DNA of 64,000 nt, from the NCBI RefSeq assembly GCF_006352065.1, contig NZ_CP040915.1, positions 3,410,001 to 3,474,000 on the forward strand, written 5' to 3'. The notes below the pieces were generated by a model. It was given only the letters and a program-made list of their open reading frames with translations. It made no database searches and was not told the origin of the DNA. A program made the position numbers and the translations under genes. Positions 2,866 to 48,536 of the stretch are shown here, piece after piece. Positions within the stretch are counted from its first letter, which is position 1; every line of letters starts with the position of its first letter. This DNA is from Georgenia yuyongxinii (lineage in GTDB: Bacteria > Actinomycetota > Actinomycetes > Actinomycetales > Actinomycetaceae).

Positions 2866-2896
2866 TGACATCTGGCGGAGAAGATGACATCTCGCG
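2866..2896 (-). repeat. 19-bp-period repeat, copy A (after fumC)
   Basis: On the + strand TGACATCT occurs at 2866 and again at 2885, exactly 19 bp apart, with GGAGAAGA between. On the fumC sense strand this reads GAGATGTCATCTTCTCCGC followed by a second, partial unit. It starts 9 nt after the fumC stop codon. It contains the 11-bp palindrome AGATGTCATCT that most family members share. Confidence 0.85.
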
Positions 2897-2905
2897 CCTC
2901 TTCGG

Positions 2906-4327
2906 TCAGGCCTGCTTGGGCGCCGTCATGCTGCGCACGTCCAGGGCGGCGTCGAGCTGCTCGGGCGTGACCTCCCCACGCTCGACGTAGCCGAGGTCCT
3001 CCACCGCGGCCCGCACCGTGATCCCCTGCTTCACCGAGTGCTTGGCGATCTTCGCGGCCGCCTCGTAGCCGATGACCCGGTTCAGCGGGGTCACGATCGA
3101 CGGCGAGGACTCGGCGAGCTCGAGGCACCGGTCCACGTTCGCGACCAGCCCGTCCACCGTCTTGGTCGCCAGTACGCGGGAGACGTTGCCGACCAGGGTG
3201 ATGGACTCGAGCAGGTTCCGGGCCATGACGGGCAGCATGACGAGCAGGTCGAAGTTGCCCTGCGCGCCGGCGAACGCGATCGCCGCGTCGTTGCCGATCA
3301 CCTGCGCGGCAACCATGACGGTGGCCTCCGGGACGACCGGGTTGACCTTGCCCGGCATGATCGACGAGCCCGGCTGCAGGTCCGGCAGGGTCAGCTCGCC
3401 CAGGCCGGTGCGCGGGCCGGACCCCATCCACCGCAGGTCGTTGGCGATCTTGGTGAGAGAGACGGCGATAGTGCGCAGCGCGCCGGAGGTCTCCACCAGG
3501 GAGTCCTGCGCGGCCTGGGCCTCGAAGTGATTCGTGGCCTCGACCAGCGGCAGGCCGGTGTTCTGGGCGATGAGCTCGATGACCCGCTGGGAGAACCCGG
3601 GCGGGGTGTTGATGCCGGTGCCGACGGCGGTGCCGCCCAGGGGCAGCTCGGCGAGCCGCGGCAAGGTCGTGTTCACCCGGTCGATCCCGTAGCGGATCTG
3701 GGTGGCGTAGCCGGAGAACTCCTGCCCCAGGGTGATCGGGGTGGCATCCATGAGGTGGGTACGCCCGGACTTCACGACGTCCTTGAACTCCTCTGCCTTG
3801 CGCTCCAGCGAGGTGGCGAGGACCTCCAGGCCGGGCAGCAGCTCCGCCGTCACCGCCTGCATGGCGGCGATGTGGATGGAGGAGGGGAAGACGTCGTTCG
3901 ACGACTGTGAGGCGTTGACGTGGTCGTTCGGGTGCACCGGCCGGCCGAGCCGAGTGCTCGCGAGGTTGGCCACGACCTCGTTGGTGTTCATGTTCGACGA
4001 GGTGCCCGAGCCGGTCTGGAAGACGTCGATCGGGAACTCGGTGTCGTGCTGGCCGGCGATGACCTCGTCGGCCGCGCCGACGATCGCCTGGGCGACGTCC
4101 TCGGGCAGCACGCCCAGCTCGGCGTTCGCCAGCGCAGCGGCGCGCTTGACCTCGCCGAGCGCGGCGATGTGGTGCGCGGACAGGCCCCTGCCCGAGATGG
4201 GGAAGTTCTCCACCGCGCGCTGGGTCTGCGCGGAGTACAGGGCCTCCTTAGGCACCCGCACCTCACCCATGGTGTCGTGCTCGACCCGGTACTCCTGCGC
4301 GGCCTCGCCGGTCTGCTGCTGCGTCAC
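2906..4327 (-). CDS. fumC: Class II fumarate hydratase
   Basis: Converts fumarate and L-malate in the TCA cycle; an iron-independent, homotetrameric cytosolic enzyme of the fumarase/aspartase superfamily. The signature [11 protein letters not shown], containing the mobile catalytic Ser loop, and [11 protein letters not shown] are present. The GTG at 4327 ([16 protein letters not shown]) gives 473 residues, close to the family's usual 460-470, and has GGAG about 7 nt upstream; longer in-frame readings add only an Arg/Pro-rich stretch. The succinate dehydrogenase that makes its substrate is encoded at 23-26 kb. Confidence 0.96.
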
Positions 4328-4418
4328 TGCTGCTCCATGTTCGTCAGGGCGCCGCGGGCGCCGCTTCGGTCCTGTGCGAGGCCATCCTCGCATCTGCCGG
4401 TGACAGGGCTCACGCCCG

Positions 4419-4462
4419 TCCGGTCAGGCGTCCAGGTCGGTCCGGTCAGGCGTCCAGGTCGG
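4419..4462. repeat. Perfect 22-bp tandem duplication at the end of ptsH
   Basis: The 22 bases at 4419-4440 are repeated exactly at 4441-4462. The second copy carries the last codons and the stop of ptsH; the first lies just downstream, so the 3' end of the gene has been duplicated without altering the protein. Confidence 0.9.
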
Positions 4463-4712
4463 TGCTCAGCAGCTCCGCCAGCTCGTCGAGCACCGTGTCG
4501 GCGCCCTCGCCCTCGGCGGTGAGGGTGACCTCGTCGCCGTGCCCGGCGCCCAGTGTCATGACGCCGAGGATGCTGGTGGCGTCCACCGGCTCGCCGTCGC
4601 CCTTGGCGATCGTCACGGGGATCCCGGCGGCCGTGACGGCCTTGACGAAGACGGCGGCGGGCCGGGCGTGCAGCCCGACCTTCGAGGCGACGACGGCACT
4701 GCGCTGGGACAT
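4446..4712 (-). CDS. ptsH: Phosphocarrier protein HPr
   Basis: Small cytosolic phosphocarrier of the sugar phosphotransferase system, passing phosphate from enzyme I to sugar-specific IIA domains. The 88-residue size is standard. His15 lies in the active-site motif GLHARPA, and the SILGVMTLGAG region corresponds to the Ser46 segment. ATG at 4712 is preceded by AAGGA. No other PTS gene is in the window, so it stands alone as in many actinobacteria. Its 3' end is duplicated (4419-4462). Confidence 0.95.
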   Translation of the reverse strand: MSQRSAVVASKVGLHARPAAVFVKAVTAAGIPVTIAKGDGEPVDATSILGVMTLGAGHGDEVTLTAEGEGADTVLDELAELLSTDLDA

Positions 4713-4890
4713 GGTGGTCCTTCCTTCGACGACGACGGCGAGGCAGGCGCCGGTCAATATACCGACGGCCACCGCCAGGATATCGACAGGCGAAGGCAAG
4801 CCGGTCACCGTGTCAGGGCGTGGGCCGGCCGCCGCCCGGGGGCCTCGGCGTTCCTCAGGGGTCCGCTGCCGTCCGAAGTCCCGCCGCGGC

Positions 4891-6015
4891 TCAGTCCGGG
4901 TTGTACGGCGAGACCACGACCTCCACCCGCTGGAACTCCTTGACGTCGGAGTACCCGGTGGTAGCCATCGTCCGGCGCAGCGCGCCGATGAGGTTCAGGG
5001 TGCCGTCGGCGGTGCGGGACGGGCCGTGCAGGATCTCCGCGAGCGTCCCGACGGTGCCCACGCGCACCCGCTCCCCGCGAGGCAGCTCGGAGTGGTGGGC
5101 CTCGGAGCCCCAGTGCCACCCGCGGCCCGGCGCCTCGCTGGCCCGCGCCAACGCGGCGCCGAGCATGACGGCGTCAGCCCCGCAGGCCACGGCCTTGACC
5201 AGGTCGCCCGAGCGGCCCACGCCGCCGTCGGCGATGACGTGCACGTACCGGCCGCCGGACTCGTCCATGTAGTCCCGGCGGGCGGCGGCCACGTCCGCGA
5301 CGGCGCTGGCCATGGGGGCGTGGATGCCCAGCGAGCGGCGGGTGGTGTGCGCGGCGCCGCCGCCGAAGCCGACCAGCACACCGGCGGCCCCGGTGCGCAT
5401 GAGGTGCAGCGCGGCGGTGTACGTGGCCGCGCCGCCGACGATGACCGGCACGTCGAGCTCGTAGATGAAGCGCTTGAGGTTCAGCGGCTCGGCCCGGGAG
5501 GAGACGTGCTCGGCCGAGACGGTGGTGCCACGGATGACGAACAGGTCCACGCCCGCCTCGACGACGGTGCGCCAGTGCTCCTGGGTGCGCTGCGGGGACA
5601 GGCTGCCCGCCACGGTCACGCCGGCGCCGCGGATCTCCTTGAGCCGGTCCCGGATCAGCTCTGGCACGATCGGACCGGAGTAGATCTCCTGCATCCGCGT
5701 GGTGGCCCGGTCGGCCGGCAGGTCGACGATCTCGTCGAACAGCGGCGTGGGGTCCTCGTAGCGGGTCCACAGGCCCTCGAGGTCGAGCACCCCGATGCCG
5801 CCGAGGTTGCCCAGCTCGATCGCGGTGGCCGGGCTCATCACCGAGTCCATCGGGGCGGCGAGGACCGGCGCGTCCACGTGGAACGCGTCGATCTGCCAGC
5901 TCACCGAGACGTCCTCGGGGTCCCGCGTGCGACGGGAGGGGACGACGGCGACGTCGTCGAAGCTGTAGGCGCGACGCGCGCGCTTGCCACGGCCGATCTC
6001 GATCTCGTTGGTCAC
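4891..6015 (-). CDS. guaB3: GuaB3-type IMP dehydrogenase family protein
   Basis: 374-residue TIM-barrel protein of the IMPDH/GMP reductase superfamily, lacking the CBS-domain insert of true GuaB. The N-terminal YSFDDVAVVPSRRT and APVLAAPMDSVMSP match the family. Where IMPDH has its catalytic Cys loop (GPGSICTTR), this protein reads IRGTTVSAEHVSS, with no cysteine. The family is conserved in actinobacteria; related GuaB3 proteins have been linked to GMP reductase-type activity, so function here is uncertain. GTG start at 6015, 20 bp after the upstream Nudix gene, probably co-transcribed. Confidence 0.85.
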   Translation of the reverse strand: MTNEIEIGRGKRARRAYSFDDVAVVPSRRTRDPEDVSVSWQIDAFHVDAPVLAAPMDSVMSPATAIELGNLGGIGVLDLEGLWTRYEDPTPLFDEIVDLPADRATTRMQEIYSGPIVPELIRDRLKEIRGAGVTVAGSLSPQRTQEHWRTVVEAGVDLFVIRGTTVSAEHVSSRAEPLNLKRFIYELDVPVIVGGAATYTAALHLMRTGAAGVLVGFGGGAAHTTRRSLGIHAPMASAVADVAAARRDYMDESGGRYVHVIADGGVGRSGDLVKAVACGADAVMLGAALARASEAPGRGWHWGSEAHHSELPRGERVRVGTVGTLAEILHGPSRTADGTLNLIGALRRTMATTGYSDVKEFQRVEVVVSPYNPD

Positions 6016-6035
6016 CGGACGAGGCTACCGCCCGC

Positions 6036-6824
6036 TCAGGCGGGCGGGCGGGGGGTGGCCAGCCGCCGGACCGGGTCGTAGTCCATGAGCACCTCGCGGT
6101 CGCGGTCCCACTCCCGGGTCCAGCCGAGCTCGGTGAAGACGTGGTCGAGCAGGTTGCCGGTGAAGCCCCACACCCACCCGCCCGAGGTGCGGAAGCCCGC
6201 GCTGCGGTGGTCGCGGATCCGCACGGTGGCACGTTCGGCCGGGTCGAGGAGGGCGTCGACTGGGACCCGGATGGTGTGCAAGACCTCGCCGGGGTCCACC
6301 TCGGCGCAGAGGTCGGCGCGCGTCGTCCAGCCCAGCACCGGGGTGACGACGAAACCGCTGACCGGGACCATCACGGGTGGCAGCTGCCCGAGGACCTCCA
6401 CGTACTCCGGGGGCAGGCCGATCTCCTCGTGGGTCTCCCGCAGCGCCGCGCCGGCCTCGTCGGCGTCGTCGTCGTCCACCCGGCCGCCCGGCAGCGCGAT
6501 CTGCCCGGGATGGTCCCGCAGGTGCGGCGAGCGCTGCACCAGGAACAGGTCCGCGCCGCCCGGGCCCTGCCCGTCGGGCGGCGCGAGCAGGATCATGACG
6601 GCGGAGCGCCGGTACCCGGGGGCCACCGCGGGGTCGTAGGTGTGCACGCCGAGCAGCGGCCGGAACGTCCCGGCCGCGGCCCGCACCCCGAGCTCGACCA
6701 GCGCGTCCCGGGCGCGCGCGGTCACGCTGGCACCACCCGCCGGGGCTGCCCCGGCGGCCGACGGCGACGGATCGTCTGCGGCGCCCGCCGCAGGTCCGGC
6801 GGCGGAGGGGTCAAGGACATCCAC
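6036..6824 (-). CDS. Nudix hydrolase, CoA pyrophosphatase type
   Basis: Nudix-fold hydrolase. LPGGR followed by an acidic stretch and RETHEEIGL is the Nudix box, in the form found in CoA pyrophosphatases (NudL/YeaB type), which cleave CoA to phosphopantetheine and 3',5'-ADP. The first ~35 residues are Ala/Pro/Gly-rich and may not be structured. The GTG at 6824 gives 262 residues; no strong Shine-Dalgarno supports it, so an internal start is possible. Upstream of and co-oriented with guaB3. Confidence 0.8.
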   Translation of the reverse strand: MDVLDPSAAGPAAGAADDPSPSAAGAAPAGGASVTARARDALVELGVRAAAGTFRPLLGVHTYDPAVAPGYRRSAVMILLAPPDGQGPGGADLFLVQRSPHLRDHPGQIALPGGRVDDDDADEAGAALRETHEEIGLPPEYVEVLGQLPPVMVPVSGFVVTPVLGWTTRADLCAEVDPGEVLHTIRVPVDALLDPAERATVRIRDHRSAGFRTSGGWVWGFTGNLLDHVFTELGWTREWDRDREVLMDYDPVRRLATPRPPA

Positions 6825-6932
6825 GCGGCCAGAGTAGGCGGACGGCGGTCGGGCCGCCGAGTCCCACGTGCCACCCTCCGCCGACGGCGATGTCGGTGGC
6901 GGCTGGCAGACTCGGCGAGAAAGGAGGTGCCG

Positions 6933-9325
<2,393 letters not shown>

Positions 9326-10375
9326 TCACTCCTCCATGAGGCCGGCGATCTCCTCCACGGCGGCCAGCGCGCTGCGCACCCGGTGCACCCGGGGCAGCCA
9401 CAGGTCCGGGGCGTCGCCGCCGAGCAGGAACACCTCGACGTCTCCGCGGGCCGAGACCGCGCGGACCAGCTCGTCGGTGCCGGGCGGGTTCCCGACGACG
9501 GCGAGCACGCGCGCCGCACGCTCGGCGATCGTCCGCAGCCCCTGCTCCGGCCCGCCCAGGCTCTCGGCGCGCAGGACGCGCGCGCGGACCCCGCGCTCGG
9601 CAAGACCGCCGCCGATGACGTGGGCGCGCAGCCGGCGGTCCTGCGCCGCGCAGAGCAGCGCGGTGCGGCTGGCCGAGGCGGTGGGGCCGTCGCCGGGGCG
9701 CAGCAGGTGCACGCCGCTCTCGCGGGCCCGTTCAGCTGCCGTCGCGACCTCGCGGACTGCGGTGAGGACGGCGGTGGCGATGACGCCCTCGGGGTCCACG
9801 CCGGGGCGGTCGGAACGCTCCCGCTGGGACAGCATCGCCAGCGCTGGCTTGGCGAGGCTGGTCCAGGCCTTGACGATGCCGGCGTCGCGGACCTCCTGGT
9901 CGAGCATCCGGTGCACGCGCGGCGCGTCCGGCTCGAGCGCGGCGGCGGCGAGGGAGAGCGGGTCGACGAGCAACCGCTCGTGGTGTGCGGGCTCCTCGGC
10001 CGCGGACTCCTGCAGCCGCCTGGGCCACGGGTGGGCCTCGAGGGGGACCGCGGGGTCCGAGCTGAGGGCGGCGCGGGCGGCGTCGGAGGGGGCGACCCCC
10101 TGCAGGGTGAGATGACGCATCCGCTCGAGCCGGGCGACGTCGGCGGGGGTGTAGCGCCGATGGCTGCCGGCCTCGTGCGAGGACGGTCCCAGCCCGTAGC
10201 GCCGGTCCCACGTGCGCAGGGTCGAGGCGGCGACCCCGAGCCTGGCCGCGACGGCGGCCACGGTCAGCGGAGCACCGCCCTCGCCGTCCGGCGAGGGCCG
10301 CCTCCGGGACCCGTCGCGGCCCGATGGCCCGGGAGGACGGCCGGATCCACGCGCGGACGCAGCCATGCCCGTCAC
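9326..10375 (-). CDS. MerR-family transcriptional regulator with a large C-terminal domain
   Basis: About 349 residues. A Pro/Arg/Gly-rich N-terminus of ~35 residues is followed by a MerR-type winged helix (TVAAVAARLGVAASTLRTWD, then YGLGPSSHEAGSHRRYTP). The rest, ~270 residues, resembles the layout of MerR proteins with cobalamin-binding-like modules, but I see no DxHxxG cobalamin motif. The GTG at 10375 with GGGAG upstream is chosen; an in-frame ATG at 10366 is possible. Divergent from whiB across a ~210-bp shared control region. Confidence 0.75.
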   Translation of the reverse strand: MTGMAASARGSGRPPGPSGRDGSRRRPSPDGEGGAPLTVAAVAARLGVAASTLRTWDRRYGLGPSSHEAGSHRRYTPADVARLERMRHLTLQGVAPSDAARAALSSDPAVPLEAHPWPRRLQESAAEEPAHHERLLVDPLSLAAAALEPDAPRVHRMLDQEVRDAGIVKAWTSLAKPALAMLSQRERSDRPGVDPEGVIATAVLTAVREVATAAERARESGVHLLRPGDGPTASASRTALLCAAQDRRLRAHVIGGGLAERGVRARVLRAESLGGPEQGLRTIAERAARVLAVVGNPPGTDELVRAVSARGDVEVFLLGGDAPDLWLPRVHRVRSALAAVEEIAGLMEE

Positions 10376-10487
10376 CGCACTCCCTTCGTTGCCATGGATC
10401 GATCTTGACGCGATTTCGCCCATCTCGCCACCGCGCCGCTCCGACGACGGACGGAAAGTGACCGAATGACCAACTTTCGCGAGGGTC

Positions 10488-10517
10488 TTGAACAAGTTGT
10501 GCATCGGTTGCTAGTTT
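10488..10517 (+). promoter_or_regulatory. Candidate whiB promoter
   Basis: TTGAAC (10488-10493) and TAGTTT (10512-10517) are separated by 18 bp and precede the whiB start by about 70 bp. This is a reasonable match to a housekeeping sigma -35/-10 pair and lies immediately before the inverted repeat at 10528-10552. Confidence 0.5.
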
Positions 10518-10527
10518 CTCTGACAGG

Positions 10528-10552
10528 GGGAACTCCCCCGGGGGGAGTTCCC
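10528..10552. promoter_or_regulatory. Perfect 12-bp inverted repeat upstream of whiB
   Basis: GGGAACTCCCCC and GGGGGAGTTCCC flank a single central G. It lies just after the candidate -10 box and 33 bp before the whiB ATG, so it could be an operator over the early transcribed region or a leader hairpin. No factor is assigned. Confidence 0.6.
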
Positions 10553-10584
10553 ACCGCAGGCAGACCTACGGAAGGACGATGAAG

Positions 10585-10875
10585 ATGGCAGAGCTCTCGA
10601 GGCTTCCGGGCCCGGTGATGGATCTGTGGGAATGGCAGTACCAGGGGAAGTGCCGCGAGGCGGACCCCAACCTCTTCTTCCACCCCGAAGGTGAGCGGGG
10701 TGGCACACGCCGTCGCAGGGACGAGGCGGCGAAGGCGATCTGCGCCACGTGCCCGGTGATCGAGCAGTGCCGCTCGCACGCGTTGCGGGTGCGTGAGCCG
10801 TACGGCGTCTGGGGCGGCCTGAGCGAGGACGACCGTCAGGCGATCCTCGCCCGCCCGGCACGTCGCGCGTCCTGA
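10585..10875 (+). CDS. WhiB-family transcriptional regulator (WhiD/WhiB3-like)
   Basis: 96-residue iron-sulfur regulator found only in actinobacteria and their phages. Four cluster cysteines (Cys23, Cys53, Cys56, Cys62; CATC spacing) and the GVWGGLSEDDR turn are present. The N-terminus AELSRLPGP and FFHPEGERGG resemble Streptomyces WhiD and mycobacterial WhiB3, which respond to redox/NO and control sporulation or lipid metabolism. Two in-frame ATGs exist (10579 and 10585); the second is chosen because GGAAGGA lies ~9 nt upstream and it matches the WhiD start. Confidence 0.93.
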   Translation: MAELSRLPGPVMDLWEWQYQGKCREADPNLFFHPEGERGGTRRRRDEAAKAICATCPVIEQCRSHALRVREPYGVWGGLSEDDRQAILARPARRAS

Positions 10876-10919
10876 CGGCGCTGCCTGCGGACGACGGAGC
10901 TGCGCGGCCACGGTGGACG

Positions 10920-10962
10920 CCACGCAGCCCCGGACCTCACGAGGAGGTCCGGGGCTGCGTGG
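10920..10962. terminator. Bidirectional terminator between whiB and groES
   Basis: A perfect 19-bp stem (10920-10938 with 10944-10962) closes a 5-nt ACGAG loop in the gap between two convergent genes, 17 bp past the groES stop. No T-run is present. Confidence 0.85.
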
Positions 10963-10979
10963 TGCCGGCTAGGCGGCGG

Positions 10980-11276: not shown

Positions 11277-11415
11277 TGCGGACCTCCCCTTCGCGTGTGT
11301 GATGGGACAGTACATAGGGTTTCGCGCACCCTCCGCTCCGCACCCGCCGTCGCGGGGGTCGGGCGCCGAGCATCCGGTACGCCGCCGCGACCCCGAAGGG
11401 CCGCGCCTGGCCCTC

Positions 11416-11512: not shown

Positions 11513-12279
<767 letters not shown>

Positions 12280-20715: not shown

Positions 20716-20733
20716 CCCGCCCCCGCCCCTTCC

Positions 20734-20777
20734 CGCGAGATGTCAACTTCTCCGCGACATGTCGAGTTCTCGGCGAC
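20734..20777 (+). repeat. 19-bp-period repeat, copy B (after the ligase gene)
   Basis: GAGATGTCA at 20737 and GACATGTCG at 20756 are 19 bp apart, with ACTTCTCCGC between, and a third degenerate unit (AGTTCTCGGCGA) follows. This is the longest direct array of the family. It lies 18 bp after the ligase stop and reads in the ligase direction. Confidence 0.85.
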
Positions 20778-22938: not shown

Positions 22939-22971
22939 TGACATCTCACGGAGAAGATGACATCTCGCGGG
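22939..22971 (-). repeat. 19-bp-period repeat, copy C (sdhB 3' UTR)
   Basis: On the + strand TGACATCTC occurs at 22939 and 22958, 19 bp apart, with ACGGAGAAGA between. On the sdhB sense strand it reads GAGATGTCATCTTCTCC and so on, starting 15 bp after the stop codon and ending just before the terminator hairpin. Confidence 0.87.
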
Positions 22972-22986
22972 ATGTTGGGGTGCGGG

Positions 22987-26790: not shown

Positions 26791-26859
26791 GCCTTGGCGC
26801 CTGACATCTCCCCGATGACGGGCCCGCTCAACGGCACGGCTAGCGTTCGTCGACCGCCG

Positions 26860-31672: not shown

Positions 31673-33304
31673 TCAGCGCAGCAGCCCGGCGACGGCGGCC
31701 GGCAGCGCCGCGGCGACGTCGAGGGCGCTGATCGGCCCACCCGGCGCCGCCCCGTGCCGTGAGATGTCATCTTCGCGGCGAGATGGACGTCTCACCGAGA
31801 AGTTGACACGTCTCGGGAGGGCGGTGCCCTGGCCGGCGGCGAGCCGGGCCGCGCGTCCGTGCACGTACGCCGCGGCCGCGGCGAGCGAGGCGGGGACGCC
31901 GGCCAGCCGGCCCTCGGCGTCGACGGCGAGCGCCTCCCCGTACCCCGCGAGCAGCGCGCCGAGGACGCCTGCGAGCACGTCCCCGGCCCCGGCGGTCGCC
32001 AGCCAGGGTGTGGCGTCGGCCTGTGCGTAGAGGGGCCCGTCGGGGGCGGCGACGACGGTCGTAGGGCCCTTGAGCAGCACGGTGGCGCCGGTGACCTCGG
32101 CCGCCAGGCGGGCGTGGCGCGCCGGGGCGGCGTCGACGGCCGCCCGGGTGGTCTCCTCGCCGCGTGCGGTCAGCAGCAGGGCGAGCTCGCCGGCGTGCGG
32201 GGTCAGCACCACCGTGGCCGGCAGGTCGGCGTGGGCGTCGTCGTGGACGAGGCTGAGCCCGCCGGCGTCGAGGACGACGGGCACGCGGGCGGCCAGCCCC
32301 GCGGTGAACGCCTTCTCCATCTCCTGGGCGCGGGCGGCGTCGTCGGGGTCGATGCCACAGCCGATGGTCCAGGCCTGCACCCGGCCGGGCGTCGTGACCA
32401 CCTCGGGGTGGCGGGCGTGCACCAGCGACGTCGGGACCTCCGGGCCGTGGTAGCGCACCATGCCCAGCCCGGTGCGAACGGCCCCGGCGACGGCGAGCAC
32501 CGCGGCGCCGGGGTAGGCCTGCGACCCGGCCACCACGCCGAGGACGCCGCGGGTGTACTTGTGGTCCGCCGGGCCGGGCAGCGGCCACAGGTCGGCCACG
32601 TCCGTCGCGGACAGCCGGCACACGGCGGGCGCCTGGCCGGCGAGGGCCTCCAGCCCCACGTCGACCACCTCCACGCGCCCCGCGAGCGCCGCGGCCGGGG
32701 GCAGCAGGAGCCCGGGCTTGGCGGCGCCCATGGTGACGGTGACGTCGGCGGGGAGCACGGGACCGGGCAGGGCGCCGTCATCGACGCCGATGCCGCTGGG
32801 CACGTCGACCGCTACGACCACGGGCTCGTCCGGGGACGCCGCCCGCTCGGCGGCGAGCGCGGTGACGACGCCGGCCAGCGGCTCGCGGAGCGGCGCCCGG
32901 GCGCCGATGCCGGTGAGCGCGTCGACCCAGACGCCGGCCCGGCGGGCCAACGCGGTGACGGCGTCGTTCAGTTCCGGCGCACCGGCGAGCTCGTGCACCC
33001 GGACCCCGGCGGCGCGGGCGGCCGCGAGCCCGGCGGCGTGCGGGTGCTCGGCGAGCACCGCGGCGTGCACCTGGCAGCCGCGCCGGGCCAGGTGGCTGCC
33101 GGCGAACAGCGCGTCCCCGCCGTTGTTGCCGCCGCCGACCAGGAGCAGGATCACCGAACCGGGAATGCGGTGACCGCGCTCGCGCAGCTCGGCGGCCACG
33201 TGGGTGGTGAGCGCGAAGGCGGCTCGGGCCATGAGGGGTTCACCGGCGGCGAGGAGAGGCTCCTCGGCCGTCCGGACGTCGGCGGCGGTGTGTGCGCGGA
33301 TCAT
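31673..33304 (-). CDS. nnrE-nnrD: Bifunctional NAD(P)HX epimerase/dehydratase
   Basis: 543-residue fusion repairing hydrated NAD(P)H. The N-terminal epimerase domain (about 1-215) has GGGNNGGDALFAGSHLARRG; the C-terminal ADP-dependent dehydratase has TPHAGEL, LKGPTTVV and ATAGAGDVLAGVLGALLA. Near the end (RRVNFSVRRPSRREDDISRH) the sequence is encoded by an intergenic-type repeat (31760-31816) inserted in frame; the normal tail GGPISALDVAAALPA resumes after it. ATG at 33304 overlaps the stop of a possible small ORF upstream. Confidence 0.93.
   Translation of the reverse strand: MIRAHTAADVRTAEEPLLAAGEPLMARAAFALTTHVAAELRERGHRIPGSVILLLVGGGNNGGDALFAGSHLARRGCQVHAAVLAEHPHAAGLAAARAAGVRVHELAGAPELNDAVTALARRAGVWVDALTGIGARAPLREPLAGVVTALAAERAASPDEPVVVAVDVPSGIGVDDGALPGPVLPADVTVTMGAAKPGLLLPPAAALAGRVEVVDVGLEALAGQAPAVCRLSATDVADLWPLPGPADHKYTRGVLGVVAGSQAYPGAAVLAVAGAVRTGLGMVRYHGPEVPTSLVHARHPEVVTTPGRVQAWTIGCGIDPDDAARAQEMEKAFTAGLAARVPVVLDAGGLSLVHDDAHADLPATVVLTPHAGELALLLTARGEETTRAAVDAAPARHARLAAEVTGATVLLKGPTTVVAAPDGPLYAQADATPWLATAGAGDVLAGVLGALLAGYGEALAVDAEGRLAGVPASLAAAAAYVHGRAARLAAGQGTALPRRVNFSVRRPSRREDDISRHGAAPGGPISALDVAAALPAAVAGLLR
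31760..31816 (+). repeat. 19-bp-period repeat, copy D (inside nnrD)
   Basis: GAGATGTCA at 31761 and GAGATGGAC at 31780 are 19 bp apart; directly after, the opposite orientation follows (GACGTCTCACCGAGAAGTTG, then ACACGTCTCGG). Two units therefore face each other. The whole element lies in the nnrD reading frame without a stop and adds about 20 residues to the C-terminal region. Confidence 0.8.
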
Positions 33305-33480
33305 GTGCCCATGGTGCCCGGGCCAGGGCGCAGCCGAGCGTCATCTCGCGCGCCGGGCTCGCTGGCGAGTTTTGCCTTCTCGAGGAGGTGGCGGTCCGAT
33401 CGCGCCGCATTGTCCGGTCGGCTCCGGCCGCACAGCTGAGCGACCAGGGCTTTTGCCTCGCGCGCCACCACCTCCGCCAT
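33301..33480 (-). CDS. Possible small ORF between acpS and nnrE
   Basis: A 59-residue frame (MAEVVAREAKALVAQL at its start) begins at the edge of repeat copy E and its stop overlaps the nnrE ATG as ATGA, the spacing expected of a coupled gene. It lacks a Shine-Dalgarno and matches nothing I recognise. The DNA is somewhat less GC-rich than its neighbours (two AAAA runs) and holds fragments reminiscent of decayed repeat units. It may be a spurious frame. Confidence 0.25.
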   Translation of the reverse strand: MAEVVAREAKALVAQLCGRSRPDNAARSDRHLLEKAKLASEPGARDDARLRPGPGTMGT

Positions 33481-33513
33481 GACATCTGGCCGAGAAGATG
33501 ACATCTCGCGGCG
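33480..33513 (-). repeat. 19-bp-period repeat, copy E (after acpS)
   Basis: TGACATCT on the + strand at 33480 and 33499 (19 bp apart) with GGCCGAGAAGA between. On the acpS sense strand it starts 11 bp after the stop codon and reads CGCCGCGAGATGTCATC onward. Confidence 0.86.
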
Positions 33514-33524
33514 AAACGGGTGGC

Positions 33525-40275: not shown

Positions 40276-40319
40276 AGTTCTCCTTCAGTCCTTTTCCTGC
40301 GGTGCCCGTGGCGCGAGGC

Positions 40320-40763: not shown

Positions 40764-40804
40764 GGGCGTAGCCTTCGTTTCTTCAGCGTTCTTGTCGTCG
40801 GGTA

Positions 40805-40835
40805 CAGCTATGGCGGCGCTGAGACCCATGGTCAA
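40805..40835 (-). promoter_or_regulatory. Candidate rplM promoter
   Basis: On the minus strand TTGACC (40835-40830) and TAGCTG (40810-40805) are separated by 19 bp, ~45 bp before the rplM start. Spacing is long and the -10 is weak. Confidence 0.3.
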
Positions 40836-41085
40836 ATTGGTGCTCGCTGCGCGCATCCGGGCGGCTACGCCGGCGAGTGGGAGCACCGGGAGCGCATGGG
40901 GATGCACAACGACGTCCCAGGGTACTCCGACGCGAGCGACGCGGTCAAAACATCTCACCCACTCGACCTGCGTGAGGCCCGCCACGAAACCCGGCCACGC
41001 CGCGCCGGGAGCCCGGGTGGAATGTGCGTCATGAGGCCCCGCGGCGCCGGACATCAAGCACCCCAGACCAACGCAGGCGGACCGC

Positions 41086-42783
41086 TCAACGACGGCGGAC
41101 GCCGTCGTCCTCCCACACCGGCTCCGAGGTCTCCACGACCGTGCCGTCCGCGCGGACCTGGAGGAAGCGATCGAAGCCACGGGTGAACCACCGGTCGTGG
41201 GTGACCGCCACCACGGTGCCCTCGAACGCGTCCAGGCCCGCCTCGAGGGCCTCGGCTGAGTGCAGGTCGAGGTTGTCGGTGGGCTCGTCGAGCAGGAGGA
41301 GCGTCGCCCCGGAGAGCTCGAGCAAAAGGATCTGGAACCTCGCCTGCTGCCCGCCGGAGAGAGTCTCCACCCGCTGTTCGGCGGCGTGGGCGAGCTCGTA
41401 GCGGTCCAGCGCGCGGCCGGCCTGCTCGCGCCCCATGCCGGCCCGCGTCCCCGCACCGCGGTGGAGCACCTCGAGCAGGGTCCGGCCGGTGAGGTCCGCG
41501 CGCAGCTGCCCCTGAGCGAACCACCCGGGCCGCACACGCGCCCCGAGCCGGGCCTCGCCGGTGTGCGGGACGTCCGCGACGGGCTGACCGTCGGCGGGAA
41601 GGTGTTCCGGCCCGGGGTCCGAGCCGCCCCGCGCGAGCAGCCTGAGCAGGTGCGACTTGCCCGTGCCGTTCGCACCGAGCACGGCCACGCGCTCGCCGAA
41701 CCACACCTCCAGGTCGAACGGCGTGGTCAGCCCGGGCAGCTCGAGAGCGGTGCAGACGATCGCCCGTTTGCCGGTGCGTCCGCCGCGCAGGCGCATGGTG
41801 ACGTGCTGGGCGGCGACGACCACCTCCGGTGGGCCCGCCGCCTCGAAGCGGGCGAGGCGGGTGCGGGCCGCCTGCAGCCGGGCGGCCATGTCGGAGTTGT
41901 AGGCCGCCTTCTGCCGGTACATGACCACCAGCTGGCGCAGCTTGGCGTGCTCCTCGTCCCAGCGGCGCCGCAGCTCCTCCAGCCGGCTCATCCGCTCGGC
42001 CCGCGCGGCGGGGAACGTGGCGAAGGAGCCGCCGTGCACCCAGGACGTGGCGCCGGCGGGGCCGGGCTCGAGGGCGGCGACGTGCGTGGCCGTGCGGGCG
42101 AGGAGCTCGCGGTCGTGGCTGACGAAGAGGACGCCCTTGGTGGTGGCGCGCAGCTGGTCCTCGAGCCAGCGCTTGGTGGGCACGTCGAGGGAGTTGTCCG
42201 GTTCGTCCAGGACAAGCAGCCCGGCGGGGCCGCGCAGCAGGGCCGTGAGCGCCAGCCGCTTGGCCTCGCCGCCGGAGAGGGTGCGCACCGCGCGCCATTG
42301 AGCGCGGTCGAACGGCTGGGCGAGCACCTCCATGGTGATCTCGTCCCACTCGGCCTCGGCGGCGTAGCCGTCCACCTCGGCCCAGTCGGCCAGCGCCTGG
42401 GCGTACGCGAGCTGGGCGGGCTCGTCGTCGTCGGTCATCATCGCCAGCTCCGCGGCCTCGAGCCGGTGGGCCACCTCACGCAGCCGGTCGGGCGCGTGGG
42501 CGACGAGGAGGTCACGCACGGTGCGGTCGTCGGCCGTGCGACCGACGAGCTGGTCCATGACGGCGAGCGTGCCGCTGCGGCTGACGGTGCCGCGGTGGGG
42601 CTCCAGCTGACCGGTGGCGATGCGCACGAGGGTGGTCTTGCCGGCGCCGTTCGGGCCGATCAGCGCCACCCGGTCGCCCTCACCCGCGCGGAGCGAGACG
42701 TCGGCGAGGAGTCCGCGACCGTCCGGCAGGTCGTAGCCGATGCCGGCCAGGTCCAGGTGTGCCACCGCGTCAGGATCGCGCAC
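41086..42783 (-). CDS. ABC-F family ATPase
   Basis: 565 residues with two ABC domains in one chain and no membrane segment, the ABC-F architecture of ribosome-acting proteins. Domain 1 has [17 protein letters not shown] and [12 protein letters not shown]; domain 2 has [16 protein letters not shown] and [12 protein letters not shown]. The linker ([17 protein letters not shown] and on) is the charged coiled-coil that reaches the ribosome. Whether it is a translation factor or gives antibiotic protection cannot be told. GTG at 42783 is used; GTG at 42765 (VAHLDLAG) is an equally plausible start. Confidence 0.9.
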
Positions 42784-42882
42784 GGGGTGCGCGGTGGTCC
42801 AACGGATTGGGGCCGGCTGTCCGTCCGTGCGAGCCCGCCGTCCGCCGGTGCGAGGCCGGCAGACCGGTGGCAGGCTGGCCGT

Positions 42883-43419
42883 ATGAGTACCGATGTTCCC
42901 AACCTGCCCCAGGACTCTCCCGGCGACGACCAGTTCCTCAGCGACGAGTCGTGGCAGCCCAACAAGGAGGACGCGCTGCTGACGACGGACAGCGAGGACG
43001 TCCTCGACGACGGCCTGACCGCCCCGGACACCGACCCTTTGGCGTCACTCGACCTGACCGAGTCGGGACAGCGCGAGGGCGAGACATGGGACGACCGGCT
43101 CGCCCGCGAGGAGCCGGAGGTGTGGGAGGAACAGCCGCCCGCCGACGCGAGCGACCAGGCGGGCACGGGGATCAACGGTGAGGAGCCGACCGGTGAGGAG
43201 TCCGCCGTCGGGACCCTCGTGGCCGCGCCGGACGACGACGACCCCTCCGACCGTCCAGGTGAGGAGCAGGACGTGTTCGCCGCGACCGCCGCGCGAACCG
43301 GCAACCTCGCACCCGAGGAACAGGCCATGCACCTTGAGGACCAGGGCATCGCCGTCGACGAGGGCGGCACGATCGAGCCCGACGGCGAGGACGTCATCGC
43401 CGGTGAGGACCGCCTCTAG
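42883..43419 (+). CDS. DUF5709-type acidic protein
   Basis: 178 residues, about a third Asp/Glu, no TM or signal. The order (PEDALL/TSDVLDDG, then GETWDDRLAREEPEV and a terminal GEDRL) resembles the actinobacterial DUF5709 family, whose function is unknown. ATG at 42883; the Shine-Dalgarno is poor. Lies between the ABC-F gene (divergent) and fdhD (60 bp downstream, same strand). Confidence 0.72.
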   Translation: MSTDVPNLPQDSPGDDQFLSDESWQPNKEDALLTTDSEDVLDDGLTAPDTDPLASLDLTESGQREGETWDDRLAREEPEVWEEQPPADASDQAGTGINGEEPTGEESAVGTLVAAPDDDDPSDRPGEEQDVFAATAARTGNLAPEEQAMHLEDQGIAVDEGGTIEPDGEDVIAGEDRL

Positions 43420-43479
43420 ACCGGGGTCGCCGCACCCGAGGCGCCCGTAGACTGCACCGCACCACGAGGAGGTGCGGCC

Positions 43480-44316
43480 GTGCGAGCAACCAAGCGACGC
43501 CCGGTGGTGCGGCTCGACGCCGACGGCGGTCGCCGCGCCCGCGCGGACACCCTCGCGGGCGAGGAGCCGCTCGAGATCCGCGTGGCCGGCGTGCCGTACA
43601 GCATCACCATGCGCACGCCCGGCGCAGACTTCGACCTGGTGGCCGGTTTCCTGGTCTCCGAGGGTCTGGTGTGGCACGCCGGGCAGATCGTGTCCATCGC
43701 GTACGGCGCCGGCGTGGAGCCCGACGGCTCCCGCAGCTACAACTTGGTCGAGGTGCGGCTGGCAGCCGGAGTCGCGCCGCCCGACCCCTCGTTGAGCCGA
43801 CACGTCTACACCTCCAGCTCGTGCGGCATCTGCGGGACCGCCTCCATCGAGGCGGTGACGCGCGCCTCCCGCTTCCCGCCCGACGGGGACGGCCTGCGCA
43901 TCAGGCTTCCGGAGCTCCTCGCGCTGACCGAGCGGCTGCGCCAGGGCCAGCAGGTCTTCGACAGCACGGGCGGCGTGCACGCGGCCGGCTTGTTCGCGGT
44001 CACCGCGGACGGGCGCGCGGACCTCGCGTGCCTGCGCGAGGACGTGGGTCGCCACAACGCCGTCGACAAGACGGTCGGCTGGGCACTGCGGGAGGGCAGC
44101 CTGCCGCTGAGCGGGACCGTCCTGCAGGTGTCCGGCCGGGCGTCCTTCGAGCTCGTGCAGAAGGCGTACATGGCCGGGATCCCCGCACTGGCTGCGGTGA
44201 GCGCACCATCCGCGCTCGCCGTCGAGCTCGCCGCGGAGTGCGGCATCACGCTGGTCGGGTTCAGCCGCGGCGCGAGCGTCAACGTCTACGCGGGCGAGCA
44301 CCGGATCCTGACCTGA
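43480..44316 (+). CDS. fdhD: Formate dehydrogenase accessory sulfurtransferase FdhD
   Basis: Moves sulfur from IscS-type desulfurase to the Mo-bisMGD cofactor of formate dehydrogenase, without which the enzyme is inactive. 278 residues; Cys115 and Cys118 in SSSCGICGTAS are the sulfur-carrying pair, and FDSTGGVHAAGL, REDVGRHNAVDK and SGRASFELVQKA are diagnostic. GTG at 43480 with GAGGAGG upstream. Its client is the fdh operon at 48.5-54 kb, not adjacent. Confidence 0.95.
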   Translation: MRATKRRPVVRLDADGGRRARADTLAGEEPLEIRVAGVPYSITMRTPGADFDLVAGFLVSEGLVWHAGQIVSIAYGAGVEPDGSRSYNLVEVRLAAGVAPPDPSLSRHVYTSSSCGICGTASIEAVTRASRFPPDGDGLRIRLPELLALTERLRQGQQVFDSTGGVHAAGLFAVTADGRADLACLREDVGRHNAVDKTVGWALREGSLPLSGTVLQVSGRASFELVQKAYMAGIPALAAVSAPSALAVELAAECGITLVGFSRGASVNVYAGEHRILT

Positions 44317-44320
44317 CCTG

Positions 44321-44380
44321 TCAGTTCTTCTTGGCCGGCGCCTTGCTCTTCCCGACGGCGTTGCCGGGCTTGGCGGTGCC
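44321..44380 (-). pseudogene. Possible 3' remnant of a minus-strand gene
   Basis: On the minus strand the ~20 codons before the stop at 44323-44321 end KPGNAVGKSKAPAKKN, the look of a real basic C-terminus, but the frame is closed by a stop just upstream. It lies between fdhD and the start of the DUF222/HNH gene, so it may be the end of a gene truncated when that element arrived. Confidence 0.3.
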
Positions 44381-44463
44381 GCATCACCGCGGCGGTGCGG
44401 TTTTGCACCAGGGTTCGGGGGTGTCGACGCTGGTCGGCGGTGTGTGCACAGGCGTGAGGTGGG

Positions 44464-45998
44464 ATGTCGGTGGTCGTCGCTAGTGTCGTACACATGTTCG
44501 ATACGGGCGGTGGTGCGGGATCGGTGGTGGTGGTGCCGGGCGGCGCTGGCACGCCGGGCGGCGCTGGGGTGCCGGGCGGCGCTGGGGTGCCGGGCCGGCC
44601 TGTGTCCGCGGTGGACGTGGACCGGTGGCGGGCGGCGGTGGTGGGGCTGGACCGGGATGTCTCGGATGCCGAGCGGGTGGACCAGCTGCGTGCCTTGGAG
44701 GACCTCAAGGCCGCCGCGGCGGCGGCGCAGGCGCGGATCGCGGTCGACTTCGAGGCCTCTCAGCGCAAGGCCCAGGCCTCGGCCGGTGTGCCGGCCGCCC
44801 GCCGGGGCCGGGGCATCGGCGCCCAGATCGCGTTGGCGAGGCGGGAGTCCCCGGCCCGGGCGGGGCGGCTGCTGGGTCTGGCCAAGGCGCTGGTGGAGGA
44901 GATGCCGCACACCTTCGCCGCGCTGGCGGCCGGGGTCCTGAGCGAGGGGCGTGCGACGTTGCTGGTGCGCGAGTCCGCGTGCCTGTCCGTGACGGACCGG
45001 GCCGTGTTCGACGCCGAGGTCGCCGCCGACCCCGCCGCCCTGGACGGGGTGGGCGACCGGCGGCTGGTGGCCCGCGCCAAGGCGGTGGCCTACCGGCTCG
45101 ACGCGGCCGCGGCCGTGGGACGGCTGCGCCAGGTCGAGGCCGACCGCTACGTGAGCCTGCGCCCGGCGCCGGACACCATGACCTACCTGACTTGCCGGTG
45201 GTCCAGGGCGTGGGCGTCTACGCGGCGCAGAGCCGCGTCGCGCAGAGCCTGCGCGCCCAGGGCGACCCGCGTAGCCGCGGGCAGATCATGGCCGACACCC
45301 TCGTCGAGCGGGTCACCGGCCAGGCGGTGGCCGCCGCCGTGCCGGTCGAGGTCCAGGTCGTCATGACCGACCGGGCCCTGCTCGCCGGGGACGACGAACC
45401 CGCCACGATCCCCGGGTACGGCACCGTGCCCGCCGCGTGGGCCCGCCTGCTGGTCCACGAGCGCACCAACGGCGCCGGCTGCGCCGCCGGCACCGCGGAT
45501 GAGCCGGTCCTGGTGTGGTTGCGGCGGTTGTTCACCGCCCCGAGCACCGGGCAGCTGGTCGCGCTGGACTCCCGGCGCCGCAGCGTCCCGGCCGGGCTGG
45601 CGCGGTTCATCGACCTGCGCGACCAGGGCTGTCGCACCCCGTGCTGCGACGCCCCGGTCCGCCACCACGACCACGTCGTGGCCCACGCCGACGGCGGACC
45701 CACCACCGCGGCGAACCTCAAGGGCACCTGCGAGGCCTGCAACTACGCCAAACAAGCACCCGGCTGGCGCGACCACCCCCTGACCACCGGCGAGCAACGC
45801 GCCGGACCGGCAGAACAGCAACGCGCCGGACCCGACCCCGGGCACCTCGTGCAGACCACCACCCCGACGGGCCACCGCTACACCTCGGCCGCGCCCGCCC
45901 TACCCGGCCACCACGCGCCCACACCCCAGGCACCGAACCCGGCCGCCAACCACAGCCCCATCGAACGCCTCCTGCTCGACCTATACTGGGCAGCCTGA
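44464..45998 (+). pseudogene. DUF222 / HNH endonuclease-domain protein, frameshifted
   Basis: Belongs to the multicopy actinobacterial DUF222-HNH family (13E12-repeat type). The first frame runs from ATG 44464 (GAGGTGGG upstream) through a Gly/Pro tandem repeat and the DUF222 helices to DTMTYLT near 45190. There the frame is lost; the +1 neighbour frame resumes with LPVVQGVGVYA and holds the HNH motif (HHDHVVAHADGG, then CEACNYAK). The family usually has about two more residues here, fitting a 7-bp deletion or a 1-bp loss. Probably an inactive copy. Confidence 0.85.
44535..44594 (+). repeat. 18-bp tandem repeat coding Gly-Gly-Ala-Gly-x-Pro
   Basis: GCCGGGCGGCGCTGG recurs at 44535, 44553 and 44571, with a partial fourth unit at 44589; period 18 bp. 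It encodes PGGAGx units in the N-terminus of the DUF222 protein, a region expected to vary in length. Confidence 0.8.
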
Positions 45999-46077
45999 GA
46001 CCCCGGGTCTCGGCGGAGGCGGGCGCGGACCCTCCGTGTCGCCGCAGCCGCTGGTCGGGAATGCTCGCGACCCGGCT

Positions 46078-46977
46078 TCAGGGCGCAGGCAGCACGCGCC
46101 GGGCGCGGGCCTGAACCGCCCGGGCCGTGAGCTCGTGATCGGCCGGGTATGCGACCTCCTCGAGCGTGAGTCCGTGCGCCGGCGCCACCGTCACGGCGGC
46201 GTCGCGCAGGCCGGTGGCGAGCACCTGTGCGGGCCACCCCACCGGGCGGCGTCCCTCGCCTACCGCCAGGCACGCCCCGACGAGCGCACGGACCATGGAG
46301 TGGCAGAACGCGTCGGCGCGCACGGAGGCGACGACCAGACCGGCGTCCGGCTCGCCGGCGGGCCCCCTCCGCCACCGCAGGTCGAGCAGGGTCCGAATCG
46401 TCGTCGCGCCCTCACGAGGCTTGCAGTAGGCGGCGAAGTCGTGCTCGCCGAGCAGGTGCTGGGCCGCCGCGTCCATGCCGGCGACGTCGAGCGCCCGGCC
46501 GTGCCACACCACATCATGGCGACGCAACGGATCCCGGCACGCGACGTCGTCGGCGATGCGGTAGGCGTAGCGCCGCCAGACGGCGGCGAACCGGGCGTCG
46601 AAACCCGTCGGCGCCGCCACCGCCCGGTGCACGACGATGTCGCTCGCCCCACGCGGGGACCCCCCGCGGCCCAGCACACCAGCGAGCCGGACCACGAGGG
46701 CCTCCCCAGGCGTGCGGTCGCTGCGACCAGGGACCGCTACCCACGCCCGCGCGGGGACGTCGACGTGCGCGACCTGGCCCCGGGCGTGGACGCCCGCGTC
46801 GGTGCGGCCCGCCACGGTGAGCCGCACCGACGGCAGCCGCAGCACCGTGGCGAGCGCCTCCTCCAGCGTCCCCTGCACGGTGCGCAAACCAGGCTGCGCC
46901 GCCCACCCGGCGAACGCCGCGCCGTCGTAGGACAGGTCGAGGCGAACCCGCAGATCGGCCGTGTCGGGGGTGCTCAC
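46078..46977 (-). CDS. truA: tRNA pseudouridine(38-40) synthase
   Basis: 299 residues. [19 protein letters not shown] at the N-terminus, catalytic Asp60 in GRTDAGVHA and [15 protein letters not shown] near the C-terminus are diagnostic. GTG at 46977. In many actinobacteria truA directly follows rplQ; here they are 13 kb apart with the C1/selenium island between. Confidence 0.95.
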
Positions 46978-47210
46978 GCACGCAGGCTAACGCGAGACAC
47001 CACGCCGTCCGAGGTCGCCATCGGAACCTCCGGGGGCACAGAGCCGACGGTAACCGTCCGGAGCACCACCCCTTCCGGCCCCCGAGGGCGCATGGCATGG
47101 TGGGGGTTCGGCCGGATGCTTCTGAGGCACGGCCGCGTCTCGGCCGGATGCAGGACACGGCCGCACTTTCGAGTCCGCACGACGACGTCAGACACGAAGG
47201 AGACCCAGCT

Positions 47211-48431
47211 GTGGGTGGAAACAAGGCAATCAGCTACGCAGGGACCGGCAAGGTCGAGGTGATCGACACCGATTACCCCACGTTCGAGCTCAAGGACGGG
47301 CCGGGGGTCAACCCGGCCAACATCGGCCGCAAGGTCGACCACGGGGTGATCCTCAAGACGGTCGCCACGAACATCTGCGGCTCGGACCAGCACATGGTCC
47401 GCGGCCGCACGACGGCGCCCACGGGGCTCGTCCTGGGGCACGAGATCACCGGCGAGGTGGTCGAGTGCGGCCCCGGCGTCGAGTTCATCAAGGAGGGGGA
47501 CATCGTCTCGGTGCCCTTCAACATCTCCTGCGGCCGCTGCCGCAACTGTAAGGAGCGCAAGACCGGCATCTGCCTGAACGTCAACCCCGACCGGCCCGGC
47601 TCGGCCTACGGGTATGTGGACATGGGCGGCTGGGTCGGGGGGCAGGCACAGTACGTGCTGGTGCCCTACGCCGACTGGAACCTGCTGAAGTTCCCCGACA
47701 AGGACCAGGCCATGGAGAAGATCCTGGACCTGACCATGCTCTCCGACATCTTCCCGACCGGGTACCACGGCGCCTACACCGCCGGGGTGACCACGGGGTC
47801 GACGGTCTACATCGCCGGTGCCGGCCCGGTGGGGCTCGCTGCCGCCACCGCTGCGCAGCTGCTCGGCGCGGCCGTGGTGATCGTGGGCGACCTCAATGAG
47901 GAGCGTCTGGCGCAGGCCCGCAGCTTCGGCTGCGAGACGGTCGACGTGTCCAAGGGCGACCCGAAGGAACAGCTCGAGCAGATCCTCCGCGTCCCGGAGG
48001 TGGACTGCGCCGTCGACGCGGTCGGCTTCGAGGCACGCGGCCACGGCAAGGATGCGGCGACCGAGCAGCCGGCGACGGTGCTCAACTCGCTCATGGACCT
48101 CACCGCAGCCGGCGGCGCGATGGGCATCCCAGGCCTGTACGTCACCGGTGACCCGGGCGGCGTGGACGAGGCCGCGCAGCACGGCGACCTCTCCATCCGG
48201 CTCGGCCTCGGTTGGTCGAAGTCCCTCGGCTTCACCACCGGCCAGTGCCCGGTGATGAAGTACCACCGCGGCCTGATGATGGCGATCCTGCACGACAAGG
48301 TCCAGATCGCTAAGAACGTCAACGCCACGGCGATCCCGCTGGAGGAGGCCCCGCAGGGCTACGCCGACTTCGACAAGGGCGCCGCGAAGAAGTACGTGCT
48401 CAACCCGAACGACATGATCAAGGTGGCCTGA
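47211..48431 (+). CDS. fdhA: Glutathione-independent formaldehyde dehydrogenase (zinc, NAD-linked)
   Basis: Oxidises formaldehyde to formate with tightly bound NAD, Pseudomonas putida type. 406 residues, longer than ordinary zinc alcohol dehydrogenases. Catalytic zinc Cys56 in TNICGSDQHMVRGRTTA, structural zinc Cys in CGRCRNCKERKTGIC, YGYVDMGGWVGGQAQYVLVP, the NAD fold AGAGPVG and EVDCAVDAVGFEARGHG match that subgroup closely. GTG at 47211 with AAGGAGA 7 nt upstream. Its product is the substrate of the convergent formate dehydrogenase. Confidence 0.92.
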   Translation: MGGNKAISYAGTGKVEVIDTDYPTFELKDGPGVNPANIGRKVDHGVILKTVATNICGSDQHMVRGRTTAPTGLVLGHEITGEVVECGPGVEFIKEGDIVSVPFNISCGRCRNCKERKTGICLNVNPDRPGSAYGYVDMGGWVGGQAQYVLVPYADWNLLKFPDKDQAMEKILDLTMLSDIFPTGYHGAYTAGVTTGSTVYIAGAGPVGLAAATAAQLLGAAVVIVGDLNEERLAQARSFGCETVDVSKGDPKEQLEQILRVPEVDCAVDAVGFEARGHGKDAATEQPATVLNSLMDLTAAGGAMGIPGLYVTGDPGGVDEAAQHGDLSIRLGLGWSKSLGFTTGQCPVMKYHRGLMMAILHDKVQIAKNVNATAIPLEEAPQGYADFDKGAAKKYVLNPNDMIKVA

Positions 48432-48445
48432 CCGCCTCATGCCCG

Positions 48446-48489
48446 ACGGCGGGGCCCGGCGTGCGTGCACCGCGCCGGGCCCCGCCGTC
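48446..48489. terminator. Terminator after fdhA
   Basis: GACGGCGGGGCCCGGCG pairs with CGCCGGGCCCGCCGTC (one bulged base) around a ~10-nt loop, beginning 14 bp after the stop. It separates fdhA from the convergent formate dehydrogenase operon. Confidence 0.75.
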
Positions 48490-48504
48490 ACCCCCTACGT
48501 GCCC

Positions 48505-48536
48505 CGCGAGATGTCATCTTCTCCGCGAGATGTCAG
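48505..48536 (+). repeat. 19-bp-period repeat, copy F (overlaps nrfD stop)
   Basis: GAGATGTCA at 48508 and again at 48527, spacing 19 bp, separated by TCTTCTCCGC. It follows the fdhA terminator in fdhA orientation, and its last bases contain the stop codon (48533-48535) of the convergent nrfD-type gene. Confidence 0.87.

Follow-up and report, generated by a model that had tools for sequence, protein, structure and literature searches.

A short repeat, built of a C-rich tract followed by boxes CGYGAGNNGTCA at 19-bp spacing, is scattered over the genome of Georgenia yuyongxinii, where it lies preferentially at gene ends and in a preferred orientation. It was noticed in a window of 64,000 nucleotides (the whole stretch of DNA analysed, G000:C1:3410001-3474000) of this genome (G000; one contig of 4,171,640 bases), which was compared with eight congeners (nine Georgenia genomes in all, G000-G008). 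The repeat has a defined anatomy, is absent from the genomes searched outside the genus, differs in copy number between lineages and is inserted into some coding sequences; its unit is spelled differently in each species, at gene ends that are partly shared. On balance we think it probable, though far from certain, that this is a Georgenia-specific short dispersed repeat, mobile and homogenised, with a behaviour like that of STAR and REP elements and a tendency to lie, suitably oriented, behind genes. These small, oriented and spreading repeats look like a new family.

Anatomy of the repeat

The window was searched with the 19-mer GAGATGTCATCTTCTCCGC, allowing at most three mismatches and with shuffles for comparison. 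Six matches were found where 0.03 were expected, and 0/100 shuffles reached six; all six copies reported by the first-pass annotation of this DNA were located at their places. Genome-wide, the 16-mer GAGATGTCATCTTCTC used as seed has 103 exact copies in G000 (48 on the plus strand, 55 on the minus strand; 101 of them were read), and its reversed control has none. That GC-rich gene ends resemble each other by chance or through low complexity is next to inconceivable: the sequence behind stop codons is indeed mildly C-rich throughout the genus (C 0.41-0.47 and G 0.34-0.39 in six congeners), but the window count and the reversed control rule this explanation out. Ordinary tandem repeats were rejected as well, since Tandem Repeats Finder detects one copy in the window (copy B) and not the dispersed family.

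The element consists of a tract of about 15-30 nt, rich in C and poor in G, and then at least two boxes, one every 19 bp. In 100 copies from G000, the 12 nt after the seed (CGC-GAGATGTCA, with the second box) are conserved at 0.61-0.96 and the positions directly beyond at 0.21-0.61, the sequence 3' of the seed having played no part in detection; therefore the usual element in this genome is box-spacer-box, 28 bp, sometimes longer. G002 has 63 arrays of two to six boxes each. In their third unit, likewise unused in detection, the seven fixed positions of GAGNNGTCA are kept at 0.70-0.92, as against 0.44-0.67 for the NN positions and the spacer; the contrast is weaker in G003 (0.56-0.85 against 0.33-0.74 in 39 arrays). 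Kept while the array spacers drift, the box appears to behave as a recognition site.

The leader between stop codon and array has C 0.56 and G 0.21 in G000 (68 ends), 0.63 and 0.22 in G002 (34 ends) and 0.63 and 0.20 in G003 (22 ends), whereas array-free gene ends have 0.39 and 0.37 in G000 (61 ends; p=3e-12) and 0.44 and 0.40 in G002 (95 ends). Copies that lack a same-strand stop within 60 nt (28 in G002, 17 in G003 and 31 in G000) likewise have a C-rich tract in front of them, with C 0.52-0.57 in the last 15 nt, and C-richness has faded by 31-50 nt upstream. As it is present even away from stops, the tract seems to belong to the element and not to the gene ends. The tract is weak (C 0.52, G 0.36; p=0.09) behind 15 genes of G004 that lack arrays but are orthologous to array genes.

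Rho-dependent terminators likewise have, past the stop codon, a transcribed tract that is rich in C and poor in G. It is possible, if rather unlikely, that the repeat is a two-part signal for the 3' ends of transcripts, in which the C-rich tract would be read in RNA as Rho loading sites are and the boxes would bind a protein acting on RNA or as a roadblock on DNA, aiding termination or 3'-end maturation; species dialects would then reflect co-evolution with this protein. The leader composition, which sets arrays apart from array-free ends, is in favour of such a signal. So is the slightly higher retention of the third box behind stops, seen in each of the three species (p=0.03 in G000, 0.09 in G002 and 0.16 in G003), which mildly favours a use at gene ends. 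On the other hand, the tract is not confined to copies behind stops and, if anything, leader and array together are more structured than shuffles (z -1.5 in G000, -0.6 in G002 and -0.7 in G003; 36, 32 and 19 copies), and so they are not unstructured RNA, which weakens a plain Rho-loading reading. Moreover, to our knowledge no sequence-specific repeated box is part of Rho sites, and the Georgenia repeats differ from them in having one. A conserved RNA hairpin was rejected: the CTC at positions 14-16 that could pair with GAG occurs in 38/39 G003 units but is missing from 62/62 G002 units, and its presence in 100/100 G000 copies is due to the search seed, which contains CTC.

Placement at gene ends and inside genes

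With genes called by our own codon-usage gene finder, 93/101 copies in G000 are intergenic with both neighbours called: in one-way gaps 37 run with the gene and 12 against it, and 42 lie in convergent gaps and 2 in divergent ones. Behind a same-strand stop, 64/79 copies begin 6-48 nt from it (median 26). The rule is clearest for solo copies, which have no facing inverted mate; in one-way gaps these run with the gene by 27:3 (p=8e-6), and another 25 are convergent and 2 divergent. Arms of palindromes, which point both ways by construction, are divided 10:9. Convergent gaps, with two gene ends each, make up only 6/40 of the gaps of at least 60 nt in the window, so they are enriched for copies. 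Counts for one-way gaps are 21:8 in G002 (16 convergent, 5 divergent; 32/40 same-strand distances of 4-37 nt) and 6:4 in G003 (21 convergent, 4 divergent; 22/27 distances of 5-49 nt). The orientation rule is a strong one in G000 and of moderate strength in G002 (p=0.024), and by itself it is not significant in G003; the three species pooled give 54:15. The placement and orientation described by the first-pass annotation extend over the G000 genome. Random orientation genome-wide was looked for as evidence to the contrary and was not found, and the genome-wide orientation and distance agree well with the proposal of an element that targets gene ends. The same rule is in favour of a 3'-end signal.

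Two other accounts of placement were discarded. Orientation by replication strand was rejected, as the counts in the two halves of the record (29 plus and 26 minus; 19 plus and 27 minus) show no clear bias, the origin not having been located. Arrays as substitutes for hairpin terminators were rejected as well: hairpins of -26 kcal/mol or lower follow 28% of 43 solo arrays and 39% of 61 array-free ends, which is no clear difference. At 3090679-3090767 of the own genome (L060), the start called for a DUF5719 gene is overlapped by three units; this start may be miscalled, or the repeat may lie within the 5' part of the gene.

The copies in the window and the features that belong to them are as follows.

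2866-2893, minus strand: copy A, box-spacer-box, starting 12 nt past the stop of fumC (fumC by Pfam)
2894-2905, minus strand: tract from the fumC stop to copy A, not clearly C-rich
20716-20736, plus strand: C-rich leader from the stop of the GCS2/YbdK-like gene to copy B
20737-20773, plus strand: copy B, about two units (GAGATGTCAACTTCTCCGC GACATGTCGAGTTCTCGG) behind the GCS2/YbdK-like gene
22939-22966, minus strand: copy C, box-spacer-box behind sdhB, with a terminator-like hairpin within about 3 nt downstream
22967-22986, minus strand: C-rich leader from the sdhB stop to copy C
26802-26810, minus strand: single box, exact 9-mer GAGATGTCA, behind a rhodanese (sseA-like) gene
31761-31814, no strand assigned: copy D, inverted pair within the nnr coding sequence, in-frame insertion
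33480-33507, minus strand: copy E, box-spacer-box behind acpS (acpS by Pfam)
33508-33524, minus strand: leader from the acpS stop to copy E
48445-48489, plus strand: terminator-like hairpin between a dehydrogenase stop and copy F
48508-48535, plus strand: copy F, box-spacer-box between convergent genes, 76 nt past the dehydrogenase stop

Copies A, B, C and E had been placed 9-18 bp behind a stop and in the direction of the gene. Placement and direction agree with our results, and the distance does if CGC is counted in; the first GAGATG itself begins 12-21 nt past the stop. The short, mixed tract at copy A is an exception to the C-rich leader, and copy C does lie ahead of a terminator-like hairpin, as was claimed. 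Copy D, unlike these four, is not placed behind a stop, being in frame inside nnr. The hairpin at copy F is strong, with -43.6 kcal/mol for its best 44-nt window, and copy F sits past it and not ahead of it; the final TCA of the copy also serves as stop codon for the convergent NrfD-like gene. The lone half unit reported behind sseA is present as an exact match, but weighs little alone because 0.18 such 9-mers are expected in the shuffled window.

Some copies are part of coding sequences. Copy D is a 66-bp in-frame insertion (22 codons) close to the 3' end of nnr, a gene in which Pfam recognises YjeF_N and Carb_kinase. The site is a variable linker, since G002 and G004 have no insertion there and the sequence found in G001, G003 and G005 is different and not a repeat. 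In an ABC transporter gene (ABC_tran by Pfam; 2664419-2666356 of the own genome, L050 and L192, orthologs L193-L199), which we take to be cydC-like, an array lies in frame ahead of the ABC domain in G000 and G002 and is decayed in G004; G001, G003, G006, G007 and G008 have none there, and G005 could not be placed. The linker varies among species in length and content. The simplest history suggested by these sequences would be a single old insertion, followed by respelling in each species. Another in-frame copy, a palindrome, is found in the gene of a PucR-type regulator. Copies of this kind, as well as those past hairpins, count against a 3'-end signal.

Inverted pairs and composite copies bring another possibility into view. 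Among 16 exact inverted pairs in G000, 8/16 span 56 bp and 3/16 span 52 bp; in those of 52 bp the centre is the same or nearly so. A core of about 90 bp with inverted arms GAAATGCTCGCG and CGCGAGCATTTC, framed by boxes, occurs in three similar copies and one diverged copy (near 503.1, 581.8, 934.3 and 1878.1 kb; L075, L076, L077 and L082); it is a composite repeat resembling miniature inverted-repeat transposable elements (MITEs). The repeats could be remnants of a DNA transposon: box-spacer-box would be a terminal repeat that holds several sites for the transposase, while palindromes and composites would be MITEs and solo copies single ends. The abutting inverted pairs of fixed lengths, the composites sharing a core and the sharp right boundary after the second GTCA are what such ends would leave. 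Against this, copies without a facing mate exceed the arms of pairs (62 to 39 among the 101), no target duplication was found at the 16 pairs (the longest direct repeat in the flanks averages 2.4 nt, as against 2.2 nt for mismatched flanks), and neither the fixed gene orientation nor arrays of up to six boxes fit. None of the three rve hits in G000 is accompanied by arrays in those flanks that were read, and the open reading frames between eight inward-facing pairs (0.7-3.5 kb apart) appear ordinary by eye, with no family search made on them. No transposase was recognised in the families searched (rve in the own genome; Y1 and reverse transcriptase in the genus). Taken together, an origin as transposon ends is improbable.

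Distribution and dialects among Georgenia species

When an array with n boxes is counted as n-1 two-box hits, G000 has 109, G002 195, G003 147, G001 7 and G004 3; two boxes at 19-bp spacing were found neither in G005-G008 nor in any of 50 genomes outside the genus, and the reversed control gave 0-1 hit per genome. The exact 16-mer occurs in 2/39 genomes of a sample of relatives (the own genome and G003, with 6 copies) and in 1/297 genomes of a sample of the order, namely the own. All 46 looser two-box matches in the GTDB collection belong to G. thermotolerans NBRC 104148. The own spelling, exact or near, has no match in this collection, from which the own genome was possibly left out, or in viral contigs. 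G003 was not returned although its listed units fit the looser pattern, and therefore the collection does not cover all Georgenia. As to previously catalogued elements, a match to which the first-pass annotation had named as evidence to the contrary, Rfam at gathering score left the repeats of the window unmatched, and a text search of the open-access literature found no description of the family. The sole Rfam hit in the window is a selenocysteine tRNA gene (RF01852, 76.4 bits) at 55263-55353 on the plus strand.

In a tree built from 26 proteins that eight species have in common (without G008), G002 pairs with G004 and G003 with G001, that is, array-rich and array-poor species are sisters. 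At the fumC, GCS2 and sdhB ends G002 has arrays in its own spelling and G003 has one at fumC; G001, G004 and G005 have none. The copy at the acpS end occurs in G000 only, of eight genomes. The fumC ends of G006 and G007 (G007:C1:852762-852829) carry a different palindromic motif around GAGTCAGCA with 19-20 bp spacing. A version of the repeat with this motif in G006/G007 was rejected, since it gives two two-box hits at a single G007 locus among the 9 genomes.

The sharing of gene ends was assessed in samples taken around repeats, which makes the p-values rough. Among 54 reciprocal-best pairs of G000 and G002, 7 have arrays in both, 7 in G000 only, 1 in G002 only and 39 in neither; the 7 shared ends compare with 2.1 expected (p=1.3e-4), and each array is in the spelling of its species. 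Six of the seven cases restricted to G000 were inspected by eye, and two have altered or decayed G002 arrays that the pattern had missed. G000 and G003 share 3/71 pairs as against 0.8 expected (p=0.024), and G002 and G003 only 1/19. These orthologous ends with arrays in common are a further point for a 3'-end signal; the sister species G004 is a point against it, being array-free at 13/13 gene ends compared. The 459.7 kb of G004 examined hold no two-box hit, and its orthologs keep arrays at 0/4 array genes of G002 and 0/9 array genes of G000 outside the window, with one partial box.

Spread, function and comparison with known systems

Copy number, insertions in genes and composite copies point to spread within the genome. 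The nearly empty sister genome G004, the conserved box and the spelling peculiar to each species at orthologous ends also speak for a mobile and homogenised repeat. As to the means, the box would be the recognition site of a trans-acting protein that copies or homogenises elements within the genome, gene ends would be a tolerated or preferred landing place, and arrays would then expand and contract locally via tandem duplication. The orientation at gene ends could come from an insertion that senses the direction of transcripts or from selection against the opposite orientation. Candidate mobilising enzymes were searched for by Pfam models. The RAYT-type Y1 transposase (PF01797) was found in 0/9 Georgenia genomes, whereas the same search was positive in 5/14 control genomes, and reverse transcriptase (RVT_1) in 0/9, with 3/14 controls positive. 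Consequently, neither a RAYT-REP system nor a telomerase- or retron-like origin of the tandem units by reverse transcription was retained.

Several results do not sit easily with a mobile dispersed repeat. No mobilising gene was found by the family searches (rve in the own genome, Y1 and reverse transcriptase in the genus), and the missing target duplications at the 16 inverted pairs point the same way. Simple transposition does not explain the fixed orientation to the gene, and in G003 alone the orientation is not significant (p=0.75). Moreover, gene ends common to differently spelled species suggest that selection has preserved old positions or that the target is strict.

The interpretation in the first-pass annotation is partly supported. 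Its suggestion that the RNA of the 3' untranslated region matters is possible. The C-rich 5' tract, the arrays common to orthologous ends and the slightly better retention of boxes behind stops agree with it; copies within coding sequences or past a terminator-like hairpin, and array-free orthologous ends in a close sister, do not, and no sign was seen of the region staying unstructured or of a conserved fold. It is doubtful that the whole is a previously undescribed oriented 3'-end system, in which a Georgenia protein (termination roadblock or RNA binder) would mark transcript ends through a C-rich tract and 19-bp-phased boxes directly past stop codons, their spelling drifting in concert over about 100 sites per genome into dialects, partly at the same genes. 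Yet a dispersed repeat and a 3'-end signal may both be true. If the orientation rule is due to targeting, a machinery of neither the RAYT nor the reverse-transcriptase kind would sense gene ends and their direction while mobilising or homogenising the repeats; if it is due to selection, there would be a new sequence-specific 3'-end factor in high-GC actinobacteria. Comparison of the close sisters G002 (195 two-box hits) and G004 (3) makes both targeting and selection testable.

Among known systems, the DNA uptake sequences of Neisseria form inverted pairs behind genes and have dialects among relatives, but are not known to be in tandem at a fixed period. The Georgenia repeats are alike in the inverted pairs behind genes and the dialects and differ by their fixed-period tandem.

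REP and REPIN sequences are also numerous per genome, lie mostly in one-way and convergent gaps with some copies inside genes, differ in family among species and occur both singly and as inverted pairs (PMC3733652, PMC12306157, PMC3116915). The Georgenia repeats differ in their direct 19-bp tandem arrays, in following the direction of the gene and in lacking a GTAG- or CGTC-tagged palindrome. The 20-40 bp terminally tagged palindrome of GTAG/CGTC REPs was not found, the unit being a direct 19-bp repeat, and membership of that class was rejected. CGTC REPs seem to be a class without a dedicated transposase (PMC3733652); the motif CGTC is present in the usual G002 box and absent from the G000 box.

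STAR elements of staphylococci share more of the evolutionary picture. They are direct repeats, interspersed, in which a short signature is conserved and the spacers vary; their copy number is unrelated to the kinship of species and their loci expand and contract (PMC3532100). The signature, T(G/A/T)TGTTG(G/T)GGCCC(C/A), is 14 bp long and recurs after 40 bp or more, and no STAR neighbourhood is reported to be common to two species (PMC3532100). In contrast, the Georgenia repeats have a 19-bp period, the box given above, a C-rich leader, a gene-following orientation and loci partly shared between species; with neither the signature nor the spacing of STAR, they are not members of it. STAR is nearest in evolutionary behaviour and REPs are nearest in placement and intragenic copies, and the Georgenia repeats are filed under neither.

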